From a virus: a stretch of DNA of 34,721 bases. The first letter of the stretch is position 1, and every line of letters starts with the position of its first letter. The stretch is from IMG/VR virus record IMGVR_UViG_3300033146_004228, positions 1 through 34,721 of that record; one strand, given 5' to 3'. Of the stretch, positions 3,495-8,967 are shown piece after piece. The position numbers were made by a program, and so were the translations under genes. A model generated the notes under the pieces. The model saw only the letters and a list, made by a program, of their open reading frames with translations, was not told the DNA's origin and ran no database searches.

Positions 3495-3757
3495 TCTCAC
3501 CTCAGCACGTCATATTCTGTCCGGCGATCAACGGGATGCGCCGCGTTTCGCTCTGCGCCCGTAAGTGGATCAATGCAAACCCCCGGCAGGTGCTCTCAGA
3601 GCGTAGAGAGGGCAAGGAGTGCGCGGGCTGCCCCAAAGGCGAGGGCCTTGCTCTAGCTCTCCACCTTCTACCTTCACGAGAGGGAGAGACACCCGCTCGA
3701 TTCACCGCAGACCTCACAACCAAGGCAAGCGAGGCGAAAACGAACAATGAAGACTAA
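3491..3757 (+). CDS. Small Cys-containing, possibly zinc-binding protein
   Basis: A TTG start overlaps the previous stop (TTGA at 3491-3494), so translation is probably coupled; 88 residues. Cysteines occur at FCP (residue 10), SLCARKW (22) and KECAGCPKG (44 and 47), a spacing that could hold one zinc ion in a small ribbon, as in many phage mini-proteins. The C-terminal 30 residues are polar and probably disordered. It overlaps the methyltransferase start by 11 nt. No specific family recognised. Confidence 0.5.
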   Translation: MISPQHVIFCPAINGMRRVSLCARKWINANPRQVLSERREGKECAGCPKGEGLALALHLLPSREGETPARFTADLTTKASEAKTNNED

Positions 3758-4439
3758 ACCGAATCAAGCTGAGGCGAAGCCCATCAAAGCAGAAGTGGAT
3801 ATCGAGCGAGAGGACCAAGAGGCTTTTGAGGACAACGCGCCCACAAAGAAGGTCAAGACGCGCCGCGCCAAGCGAGATCCGCGCGACTTCTACCCAACGC
3901 CTGCATGGTGCATTGACGGGCTCTACAAGATCGCGGGGGGGCTGCCACAGGCTACGCTTGACCCTTGCGCGGGCGCGGGGGCGCTTGTCGCGGGCACATG
4001 GCGTCGGCGTGGGATGGTACACGCGCGCGGTATAGAGCTGGACCAAGCCCTCGTGAATGAGGCTATCAAGGCCGGACAGACGCGCGTTAAGCAGGGAGAC
4101 GGGCTCGCGCGATCATGGCGCGGCGAGCATATCGTGATGAACCCCCCTTACAAGGATGCGTTGACCTGGATTGAGAAGGGCGTAAATGAAGCGGTGTCTG
4201 TCTGCGCCCTACTCCCCCTTGGGATCTTGGCGTCGGCGAAGCGCCTTGAGTTTTGGAGAGCCCACCCGCCCCGAGGGATCTTTATTCTCTCCAGCCGCCC
4301 GAGCTTCACCACAAACGGGCGCACCGATGCCACGGATTACGCTTGGATCTTCTGGGATCTCTCATACGAGGGTCAGGCTTGCGCGCGAGACAATGAGATC
4401 GCTATGGGGTGGATTGAGAAGCCGAAGGGGACGAAGTGA
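3747..4439 (+). CDS. Phage DNA N6-adenine/N4-cytosine-type methyltransferase
   Basis: This 230-residue protein has a charged, probably disordered N-terminus (1-45), then FYPTP (48-52), the S-adenosylmethionine-binding motif I DPCAGAGAL (72-80), an acidic end-of-strand residue in GIELD (95-99), and the catalytic motif IV NPPY (132-135) typical of amino-methyltransferases. It is the size of orphan phage adenine methyltransferases, and no restriction endonuclease is adjacent. It probably methylates phage DNA to evade host restriction or to mark it. The stop overlaps the next gene's GTG start (GTGA at 4436). The target base and site cannot be read from the sequence. Confidence 0.85.
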   Translation: MKTKPNQAEAKPIKAEVDIEREDQEAFEDNAPTKKVKTRRAKRDPRDFYPTPAWCIDGLYKIAGGLPQATLDPCAGAGALVAGTWRRRGMVHARGIELDQALVNEAIKAGQTRVKQGDGLARSWRGEHIVMNPPYKDALTWIEKGVNEAVSVCALLPLGILASAKRLEFWRAHPPRGIFILSSRPSFTTNGRTDATDYAWIFWDLSYEGQACARDNEIAMGWIEKPKGTK

Positions 4440-4873
4440 TCCATAAAGCCTTTGTCGATGGAGAACTTGAGATAGCGCTTATCGAAAACCTCGCTGAACA
4501 GGCGTGGGAGGCCAGAGAGAACGCCCTTTTGACTGACCCAAAAAAGGGGACCAAGGTAGGCGCGGCGCTGCTTTCTCTCCGTGGTTCGGTTTTCACGGGC
4601 TGCAACGCGCAGCACCGCTTTAGGGTCGGGGAGATCCACGCAGAGCGCGCGGCGATCTCCGCCATGATCTCCGCCGAGGGCCCCGAGAGATTCAAAGGGT
4701 TCAATCTGATCGCCATCGTCGCAGAGCGTGAGAGCTTCACCCCATGCGGGCTCTGTTTAGACTGGATCTATGAGATGAGCGGCGGTGACGTGAAGATCGG
4801 GGTGCAAGCAGAGCGGGGCGGCCCCATTAAAACCTATTCATTCGACGAGATTATGAAGATTTACCCCAGATGA
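4436..4873 (+). CDS. Cytidine-deaminase-like protein
   Basis: GTG start in a four-base overlap; 145 residues, a usual length for the family. The two zinc-site motifs are present: HAE (68-70) in GEIHAERAAI and PCGLC (103-107), so H68, C104 and C107 would bind zinc and E70 would be the proton shuttle. GCNAQHRF (55-62) corresponds to the substrate-side loop of cytidine deaminases. It would convert (deoxy)cytidine or a nucleotide form to the uridine form, feeding the dUMP pool used by the ThyX-like neighbour. Whether it acts on nucleosides, nucleotides or a modified cytosine is open. Confidence 0.8.
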   Translation: MIHKAFVDGELEIALIENLAEQAWEARENALLTDPKKGTKVGAALLSLRGSVFTGCNAQHRFRVGEIHAERAAISAMISAEGPERFKGFNLIAIVAERESFTPCGLCLDWIYEMSGGDVKIGVQAERGGPIKTYSFDEIMKIYPR

Positions 4874-5661
4874 GCAAGCCAAGACGAGGACGACCGTTTA
4901 CCCCTGTTGACCGCTCAAAGTTCGAAGAATGGGGCTGCACCGACATCATAAGAAACGTAAAAGTTTACGACCTCCACGAGAGCTTAAGGCGCGCGGGCTT
5001 CCCTAAGCGCGTGGGGGCGCCTGATCTGGGCGGAATGATGAGCCCTGCGGATCTAACTCGAAAATGGAGCGAGGGTGAACTCCCCCCCAGGGCTTTGAGC
5101 GACGTGAAGCGCGGGATCAGGCTGGGGCGCCTCCGAGGCGGGCACGATAACTTTTTGAAGGGGATCAGGGTGAGCTTTGACCTGTTCTTTAGTCATGCGT
5201 TTACGCCTCAAATTCAGCGATATACGTTTATCGACATCATCAGTTCCCAGTCGAAGATGCACAAAGCCGCGGCAATGCCTCTCGATTCCGACGTGATGAA
5301 GTTCACCCCAAAAAAGACCTTAGAAGCCTGCCGGGAGGCTCAAGAGGAGTACAACCGCGCCCCAAGCTGGGAGAATCGAATGGCGATGATTTATTCGATC
5401 CCCCTTGGGTTCAAGATGTGGGTCGGGCTCTCCCTTAACTATCTCCAGCTAAAGACCGTGCTCGAACAGCGCCGGACAGATGTGCTTAAGGCCGAATGGG
5501 GGCCATTCTGCGCAATGATTGAGGACCTCCCCCTCTTTCTCGATCTCGTCTACGGTCCCATTGAAAAGGAAAACGATGATCCACGTCTATATATCAGGCG
5601 CACTCACAGGGGCCCCCGCCCACGTCCGCCCGCTCTGCGAGCAGATCGCGAGGGCTTGTGA
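4870..5661 (+). CDS. ThyX-like (flavin-dependent thymidylate synthase related) phage protein
   Basis: ATGA overlap start; 263 residues. QIQRYTFIDIISSQSKMH (114-131) resembles the ThyX signature in layout: an Arg followed some residues later by N/S-E/Q-x-S-x-R/M-Y/H. SLNYLQLKTVLEQRR...EW..F (188-213) resembles the C-terminal ThyX segment with a conserved Asn and Arg pair. A comparable family occurs in other phages. The canonical RHRxxSxNExSxRY is not intact, so the reaction may differ: dUMP methylation, another pyrimidine C5 modification, or no catalysis. The first 90 residues are extra and start basic (SKPRRGRPF). The last 29 codons overlap the next gene. Family assignment is tentative. Confidence 0.55.
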   Translation: MSKPRRGRPFTPVDRSKFEEWGCTDIIRNVKVYDLHESLRRAGFPKRVGAPDLGGMMSPADLTRKWSEGELPPRALSDVKRGIRLGRLRGGHDNFLKGIRVSFDLFFSHAFTPQIQRYTFIDIISSQSKMHKAAAMPLDSDVMKFTPKKTLEACREAQEEYNRAPSWENRMAMIYSIPLGFKMWVGLSLNYLQLKTVLEQRRTDVLKAEWGPFCAMIEDLPLFLDLVYGPIEKENDDPRLYIRRTHRGPRPRPPALRADREGL

Positions 5662-6343
5662 ATATGAGGGGTGGTCAGCTTATGCCCCCCACTTGAAGAC
5701 CGACCCGAACAAACACAGAGAGATCACGCCCTTTGAAGTCTATCAGACCGACAGAGCAGAGGTGCTCCGTGCTGATGTGGTGATCGCGTACATCGACGCC
5801 CCCTCTTTTGGTGTAGGGCAAGAAATCGAGATCGCGAGGGCCGAGGGGATTCCAGTCATAGCGTGGGCGCCCGAGTCTCCGCGGGTGTCTCGGATCGTCG
5901 AGGGCTCGCCCAACGTCTCCATAATGAGATACTGCGACTTGGGAAAAGTCCTCCACGCAGCGCGTGAGGCTGTAATCGCCGCAGCGAGGACGCGCAGGCA
6001 ACCCCGCCCCCAAGCCCAGGGCGTTGAAGTCCTCCCGCAACTCCGCGGCTTCTTTGCTCTCCCCGAGGATGCGTGGATCTTTAAAGAGCTGGAGGCGCGG
6101 ACAGAGAAGGGGAAGCGGACCTATGGTGAGGCCCTCGGCACGTTCAACGGGCGGTCAGCTCAGAGAGACGCTGAAGAGGAGGCCCTTGATCTGCTTCAGT
6201 ACGCTATGCAGGCGCTCACAGAGAACGACGCAGACGATGAGCACCCCGAGAGAACCCCCGCCGGGTGGGAGCGCAACGACCTCACCCGGCTGAGGACGAT
6301 CCACAGGATGATAGGTGATGTGCTCTCCGCCGCTGAGGAGTAG
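5576..6343 (+). CDS. Fusion: nucleoside 2-deoxyribosyltransferase-like + MazG-like domain
   Basis: The ATG at 5576 follows AAAAGGAAAAC, and the encoded MIHVYISGALTG is a typical family N-terminus, so it is preferred over the in-frame ATG at 5519. Residues 1-130 look like the deoxyribosyltransferase/Rossmann-like family: YISGALTG (5-12), D59 in YQTDRAEVLRADVVIAYID, and SFGVGQEIEIA (77-87) with a candidate catalytic Glu. Residues about 166-215 (EARTEKGKRTYGEALGTFNGRSAQRDAEEEALDLLQYAMQ) match a phage MazG-like helical pattern with clustered acidic residues for metal. Such domains exchange bases on deoxyribose and hydrolyse non-canonical dNTPs. It overlaps the ThyX-like gene by 86 nt. Confidence 0.65.
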   Translation: MIHVYISGALTGAPAHVRPLCEQIARACEYEGWSAYAPHLKTDPNKHREITPFEVYQTDRAEVLRADVVIAYIDAPSFGVGQEIEIARAEGIPVIAWAPESPRVSRIVEGSPNVSIMRYCDLGKVLHAAREAVIAAARTRRQPRPQAQGVEVLPQLRGFFALPEDAWIFKELEARTEKGKRTYGEALGTFNGRSAQRDAEEEALDLLQYAMQALTENDADDEHPERTPAGWERNDLTRLRTIHRMIGDVLSAAEE

Positions 6344-8337: not shown

Positions 8338-8967
8338 TCAGAGCACCTCAAACCAAGCCAGCCCGCCGCAAGCCGCCTCGACGTTGCCCCAGAAGGACCG
8401 AAGCCAGCGCGCATCAGCAAGCGCATCGTGGGCGTTTTCGGGTTTCTCGGGCGCGGAGATCTCCCGCCCGCTCGCGGCCTCAAAGAAGGGCAAGAACGCC
8501 TTGAGGTCCTTCACATACTTTTGCAGAGGCTCAGGAAGGTTCACCATAGGCCCATAGAGCCCGCAGAATACAACGTAATCATAGGCCCCATACCAGGACC
8601 ACATATGAGGGGGGCGATTGTCTGGGGTGAGGAAGGCGAGGGCTTTCTCTGCGATCTCCTGGGGGCGCATCCACGCGGGATCTGAGCGGTCGGGCAGATG
8701 GGGGAGCACGTTCTCTCTCACGAAGGCGTTAGCCTTGGAGAGATCCGCATCTTTGTTGATCGCGTAAAACTCGCGCCCCGCCTCATCGACGATCCCAAGG
8801 GAGATCAGCTCTATCTCAGACTCGCCGCCCTCTGCATACTCCATAAATTCGGTGTCATAAAAGAAGTGCCGGTGCTCAGGTGCCGCTGAGGCCCCTTTCT
8901 CCGCGATGTCTAACCGAGCTTGGTCAGAACGCGCGCGAATGGCACGCACTATATCTAGATAATCCAT
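8338..8967 (-). CDS. DEDDh 3'-5' exoribonuclease-like protein (Rv2179c-like)
   Basis: The 209-residue protein carries the DEDDh exonuclease residues: D38 and E40 in FYDTEF, D130 in YGAYDYVVF, and H180 plus D185 in NAHDALADARW. The segment EIELISLGIVDEAGREFYAINKDAD is characteristic of the Rv2179c-like/RNase T-related family, which degrades RNA 3' ends using two metal ions. AGGAG precedes the ATG by five bases. It is the last gene of the minus-strand run, 20 nt behind a metallopeptidase gene, an unusual place for a nucleotide-processing enzyme. Expressed late, it could recycle host or phage RNA, but that is inference. Confidence 0.8.
   Translation of the reverse strand: MDYLDIVRAIRARSDQARLDIAEKGASAAPEHRHFFYDTEFMEYAEGGESEIELISLGIVDEAGREFYAINKDADLSKANAFVRENVLPHLPDRSDPAWMRPQEIAEKALAFLTPDNRPPHMWSWYGAYDYVVFCGLYGPMVNLPEPLQKYVKDLKAFLPFFEAASGREISAPEKPENAHDALADARWLRSFWGNVEAACGGLAWFEVL

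Follow-up and report, generated by a model that had tools for sequence, protein, structure and literature searches.

A ThyX-fold protein family as a probable third thymidylate synthase, with a diverged member in a four-gene run of an uncultured myovirus

To our knowledge, textbook accounts recognise two thymidylate synthases, ThyA (PF00303) and ThyX (PF02511, COG1351; for example TM0449 of T. maritima and the ThyX of H. pylori). The ThyX-type reaction leaves the folate unoxidised (background in PMC1971073; mechanism in PMC7226160). A ThyX fold is also found in PolB, the UMP/dUMP C5-methylase of polyoxin biosynthesis. Here we describe P3, the product of the third of four overlapping genes in the window, by which we mean the whole 34.7-kb record of an uncultured virus that was analysed (IMG/VR record IMGVR_UViG_3300033146_004228), together with the protein family to which P3 belongs. 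The family is predicted to share the fold of ThyX, lacks the ThyX sequence signature and takes the place of ThyA and ThyX in two bacterial orders. We put the probability that it constitutes an undescribed third family of thymidylate synthase at roughly 0.93.

The P3 family was found in 28 IMG/VR contigs and in other phages, Fusobacterium phage Fnu1 and Clostridioides difficile phages being examples; bacterial and archaeal genomes contributed at least 138 further contigs. Some of these are long chromosomal contigs, from Treponema and from uncultured Bacilli. Fusobacteriaceae carry the family too, and among its cultured carriers are Cetobacterium somerae and Ilyobacter polytropus. Because relatives of P3 are 31–42% identical across long aligned ranges, with 28 invariant columns, they represent a genuine protein family and not a chance collection of matches. 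Every annotated record listed names the product "hypothetical protein", and no description of the family was found in the open-licence PubMed Central literature, although an earlier one elsewhere is possible. Its phage members correspond to phrog_6721, the best phrog match of P3 (E = 2e-26), which is listed as of unknown function with no tie to thymidylate synthesis or to the bacterial members.

The family replaces ThyA and ThyX in two bacterial orders and is nearly mutually exclusive with them. Among 244 genomes of Treponematales, 16 carried the P3 family, 190 ThyX and 23 ThyA; two of the 16 carriers had ThyX and none had ThyA, compared with ThyX and/or ThyA in 209 of the 228 genomes lacking the family (Fisher p = 4e-12). 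The Bacilli order that includes genome G060 behaved in the same way (279 genomes; P3 family in 89, ThyA in 130, ThyX in 31), with ThyA or ThyX present in 1 of the 89 carriers and in 160 of the 190 non-carriers (Fisher p = 4e-45). When 50 genomes picked for the presence of the P3 family were scored for the two established enzymes, 49 were without ThyA and 49 without an above-cut-off ThyX. Neither ThyA nor ThyX was detected in the 28 related viral records or in the window itself.

An AlphaFold2 model of P3 was built from 26 relatives (predicted local distance difference test score, pLDDT, 76.2; predicted template modelling score, pTM, 0.71). When this model was searched against the PDB with Foldseek, ThyX entries headed the list (best 3ah5, E = 9.2e-6), and alignment to 6j61 with VIA-align gave a Z score of 12.0 over 177 residues. 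The top 47 rows of the VIA-align comparison were occupied only by ThyX or the related PolB, at Z scores of 10–12, and the next row scored 3.7. As modelled, then, P3 is a ThyX-fold protein, matching the T. maritima and H. pylori type of enzyme in predicted fold (Z 11–12) and core size. At the level of sequence the two are far apart: no model in Pfam or NCBIfam matched P3, a sequence search for solved structures related to P3 gave no significant link, and a profile of 113 family members gave canonical ThyX no more than 4 bits. The NCBIfam thyX model matched one of 30 family members (E = 0.025). The ThyX signature RHRxxSxNExSxRY (RHRx7S) is absent, with RY[H/T] and then SSQSxMH in the 113 aligned members (family form RYHxxxxVSSQSTMH), and the family adds two motifs relative to ThyX, such that its own signature reads HDNFLKGI ... 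RYH ... SSQSTMH ... TNYxQLKTIxxQRxxHxLxEW. Because no significant sequence link was found, the relation between P3 and ThyX is drawn from structure and genome context.

In 49 P3-family loci from Bacilli folD lies directly upstream on the same strand, and in 12 of these a dCMP deaminase gene occupies position −2; in several loci the run reaches as far as nrdD, and a thioredoxin reductase gene and nrdG2 lie in between (gene identities were checked on two loci). Methylene-tetrahydrofolate is the substrate of FolD, and a supply of both dUMP and methylene-folate is encoded beside the P3 family in the Bacilli. ThyA goes with folA in sister genomes, the two genes lying side by side in 20 of 20 ThyA-bearing relatives, which also served as a control for the folA query; the P3 family, in contrast, goes with folD. 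The surroundings likewise differ from those of PolB, which is an antibiotic-pathway enzyme, whereas the P3 family is encoded in deoxynucleoside triphosphate operons or in phage replication regions.

Two single-contig genomes allow absences to be read directly. G070, a 1.06-Mb chromosome, has a P3-family gene, folD and a dCMP deaminase, with no match to thyA, thyX, folA or tdk. G060, one contig of 1.48 Mb, carries the P3 family and a tdk-like gene; thyA, thyX and folA were not found in it. Recovery of the tdk-like gene in G060 indicates that the tdk query works, although thymidine kinases from other families would escape it. The lack of detectable folA in both genomes is as ThyX-type folate use predicts, since loss of folA would be tolerable where the folate is not oxidised. 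Like ThyX, which is also exclusive of ThyA, the P3 family would most likely convert dUMP to dTMP with methylene-tetrahydrofolate and reduced flavin, leaving the folate unoxidised; the presumed conversion is the one performed by ThyA, whose fold is unrelated. Many Treponema, uncultured Bacilli and Fusobacteriaceae would rely on the P3 family in place of ThyA or ThyX; it is also carried by large phages.

It could be argued that the family is some other folate- or flavin-using enzyme and that its bacterial carriers are thymidine auxotrophs, given that G060 has a tdk-like gene and that cases of ThyA loss and dependence on tdk are known from the Mollicutes (PMC7226160, PMC1971073). We regard this as very improbable. 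Auxotrophy would predict neither the near-perfect replacement seen in two distant orders nor operons with a dCMP deaminase, whose product has no outlet other than dTMP, and no tdk was detected in G070. If the synthase assignment is right, a third family fills a missing essential step of DNA metabolism in many bacteria otherwise scored as thymidine auxotrophs, predictions of antifolate sensitivity change for the bacteria that carry it, and a protein of Clostridioides difficile and Fusobacterium phages gains a name.

The minus strand of the window carries genes for a tail sheath, a baseplate and a major head protein, which make the virus a myovirus. The four open reading frames of interest, P1–P4, lie head to tail on the plus strand, each overlapping the next, just as an initial annotation of this DNA had described (Table 1). 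P1 and P2 overlap by 4 bases (GTGA, with the GTG start of P2 set over the TGA of P1), P2 and P3 also by 4 bases (ATGA), and the ATG of P4 falls inside the non-conserved tail of P3. The class labels of that annotation held for the most part, the methyltransferase, deaminase and deoxyribosyltransferase through library matches and the ThyX-like protein through its predicted fold; its MazG label for the end of P4 did not.

P2 matches PF00383 (E = 2.3e-11, above cut-off), the NCBIfam model TIGR01354, cyt_deam_tetra (E = 2.5e-14), and cytidine deaminases in the PDB (E = 5e-9). It agrees with the TIGR01354 enzymes in overall length and in the HAE/PCxxC zinc-site motif (zinc and catalytic residues H68-A-E70 and P-C104-xx-C107), and differs from them in scoring 53.7 bits, below the equivalog cut-off of 113.65, and in having NAQH where cytidine deaminases have the NxEN sugar-binding motif. 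Because P2 and P3 are products of a single overlapping gene run, they can be paired as a route to dTMP, in which cytosine deoxynucleos(t)ides would probably be converted to dUMP and then to dTMP for phage DNA synthesis. Neither dCMP deaminase nor FolD was found near P3 in viral loci with the queries used.

Most of the family's conserved residues are retained by P3 of the window. H92 is present in 111 of 113 members, R117 in 112, and Y118, S126, S128, H131, R201 and W210 in all 113; these last seven and P178, each found in at least 112 of the 113, are all kept in the window copy. We think it likely that this copy has thymidylate synthase activity and makes dTMP from substrate fed to it by P2. 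The earlier suggestion that the gene run could build dTMP is therefore borne out strongly for the family, by its replacement of ThyA and ThyX and its folD and dCMP deaminase context, and with more reserve for the window protein, which deviates at near-invariant residues.

Several observations weigh against the synthase assignment, some for the family as a whole and some for the window copy. Pfam Thy1 (PF02511) matches 6 of 26 P3 relatives, with a best E of 0.0066, hhalign returns a non-significant probability of 2% for the P3 family against ThyX, and any mapping of P3 residues onto ThyX is tentative because sequence profiles do not connect the two. Two Treponematales genomes and one Bacilli genome carry both types of enzyme, and a Propionigenium genome among the 50 picked carriers has ThyA. 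Many of the genomes are metagenome-assembled and of unstated completeness, so that the absences of ThyA and ThyX are statistical except in the two single-contig genomes. The folD linkage was seen in Bacilli only; the Treponema and phage loci that were looked at did not show it. P2 resembles a cytidine (nucleoside) deaminase more than a dCMP deaminase, so that the route to dUMP may require a kinase. Within P3 of the window, T189L, H204D and E208A change 3 of 30 near-invariant positions, position 119, which is H in 103 of 113 members, is T, and the protein sits on a long branch (2.42). R201 and position 204 are placed near the ThyX arginine and histidine at the flavin, a tentative assignment made from ThyX numbering and the hhalign register. 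The long branch and the changes at 189, 204, 208 and 119 together raise doubt about the activity of the window protein.

As separate observations on these genomes, the P3 matches in the three that carry both enzyme types are weak and diverged (E = 4e-18 to 2.5e-23), one of them with an internal stop, and are possibly prophage or decaying copies. A Treponema metagenome-assembled genome with the P3 family also has a partial above-cut-off ThyX match (29.1 bits with neighbours in frame).

The same long end branch and three altered positions would fit a non-catalytic paralogue, either decaying or regulatory, in which case the run of four would be an unrelated cluster of early phage genes. It speaks for this reading that none of the other phages searched had P2, P3 and P4 in combination. 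No DNA-level relatives of the window were found, and no relatives of P1, P2 or P4 were confirmed in IMG/VR. A decayed or non-catalytic P3 is nonetheless improbable, since its reading frame is intact with coupled starts and most invariant residues are kept, including R117, S126, S128, H131 and R201.

P4 matches Pfam Nuc_deoxyrib_tr (PF05014; E = 3.3e-8, 34.1 bits against a cut-off of 28.8), and its N-terminal domain matches Rcl/DNPH1 (E = 0.001) and nucleoside 2-deoxyribosyltransferase (E = 0.0023) in the PDB. A single-sequence model of low confidence (pLDDT 57), which provides leads only, gave a VIA Z score of 14.4 to MilB, with response-regulator folds scoring nearly as high. The N-terminal domain resembles the nucleoside monophosphate (NMP) N-glycosidases MilB and DNPH1 at least as much as it does the deoxyribosyltransferases, and because MilB and DNPH1 are N-glycosidases of CMP, hydroxymethyl-CMP or hydroxymethyl-dUMP, P4 may hydrolyse nucleotides rather than exchange bases. 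It has in common with MilB, BlsM, DNPH1 and the deoxyribosyltransferases the fold of this domain and the GVGxE motif with its catalytic glutamate, and departs from them in being fused to a small phage-only C-terminal domain. Its part would probably be that of a nucleotide or nucleoside N-glycosidase/transferase which trims or salvages pools. By eye, six related Clostridium-type phages also have a nucleoside deoxyribosyltransferase-like gene some 1 kb downstream of their P3 homologue, and the pairing of the two may thus recur.

These resemblances of P4 bear on a further possibility, namely that P3 of the window is a ThyX-fold enzyme of changed specificity whose product is a modified pyrimidine nucleotide, such as hydroxymethyl-dUMP or a cytosine nucleotide with a 5-methyl group, with P2 and P4 editing the pool so that the modified base is used. 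The nearest folds to P4 hydrolyse CMP and hydroxymethyl-CMP (MilB) or hydroxymethyl-dUMP (DNPH1), the substitutions H204D, T189L, E208A and H119T fall at residues near-invariant in 112 relatives, and PolB, a ThyX-fold UMP methylase, shows that relatives of ThyX can change substrate (PMC7226160). Set against this are the family context, which is that of dTMP synthesis, the low confidence of the P4 model and the genes of the window that were scanned, which showed no sign of a sugar or base transferase, a kinase or any other gene for hypermodification. We consider such a change of specificity quite unlikely, and nothing was found to support the modified pyrimidine, the removal of unmodified nucleotides or the anti-defence pathway proposed in the initial annotation. 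Also unlikely, if conceivable, is a composite picture. In it, a third synthase family with the ThyX fold and a new active-site signature serves Treponema, many gut Bacilli and Fusobacteriaceae as well as large phages, while the diverged window copy has altered active-site residues, is coupled to a deaminase and an N-glycosidase-like enzyme, and possibly forms another C5-substituted pyrimidine.

P1 has the look of a standard phage DNA methyltransferase of the adenine type and needs no part in the dTMP pathway; it would methylate the finished phage DNA. It has motif I (DPCAGAGAL) and motif IV (NPPY) and matches the DNA methyltransferase family phrog_799 (E = 8.9e-34), Pfam Dam (E = 1.4e-4, short of the curated cut-off) and NCBIfam phage_N6A_met (E = 0.0046). 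Its scores are below the cut-offs of PF05869 (22.1 against 28.1 bits) and TIGR01712 (16.5 against 97.05 bits).

Table 1. Features of the four-gene run (3747–6343 of the window). Residue numbers are those of the respective protein.
Feature	Position	Strand	Description
P1	3747..4439	+	DNA amino-methyltransferase, adenine type most likely
P2	4436..4873	+	cytidine-deaminase-like zinc enzyme
P3	4870..5661	+	unannotated ThyX-fold (predicted) family member, probable thymidylate synthase; conserved core approximately residues 24–229
P3 motif HDNFLKGI, residues 92–99	5143..5166	+	invariant in the 26-member alignment
P3 R117-Y118-T119 ... S125-S126-Q127-S128-K129-M130-H131	5218..5262	+	replaces the ThyX RHRx7S motif; tentative, hhalign register
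P3 C-terminal motif L-N-Y-L-Q-L-K-T...Q200-R201...D204...A208...W210	5434..5499	+	family form TNYxQLKT...QRxxHxLxEW
P4	5576..6343	+	deoxyribosyltransferase-fold domain, then small phage domain
P4 N-terminal domain	5576..6020	+	nucleoside 2-deoxyribosyltransferase / NMP N-glycosidase fold; probable catalytic E83 in GVGQE
P4 C-terminal phage domain, YGxxLxTxNGRxAxxDAxxEALDL	6074..6262	+	phrog_7609 (E = 1.1e-6), unknown function

The MazG assignment was dropped because no MazG model matches P4 or the six phage relatives of its C-terminal domain; the true MazG gene neighbouring one of these relatives does match. Unrelated phage proteins carry the domain at their ends, and it also forms stand-alone genes, in phages of Streptomyces, Gordonia, Salinibacter, Aeromonas and Plesiomonas; once it stands beside a true MazG gene. 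Elsewhere in the window, positions 15–782 on the plus strand encode a pentapeptide-repeat protein of 255 residues with A[DN]LxG repeats (best match phrog_7713, of unknown function), and positions 8338–8967 on the minus strand encode an RNase H-like or exonuclease-like protein (phrog_2259, E = 3.5e-37).

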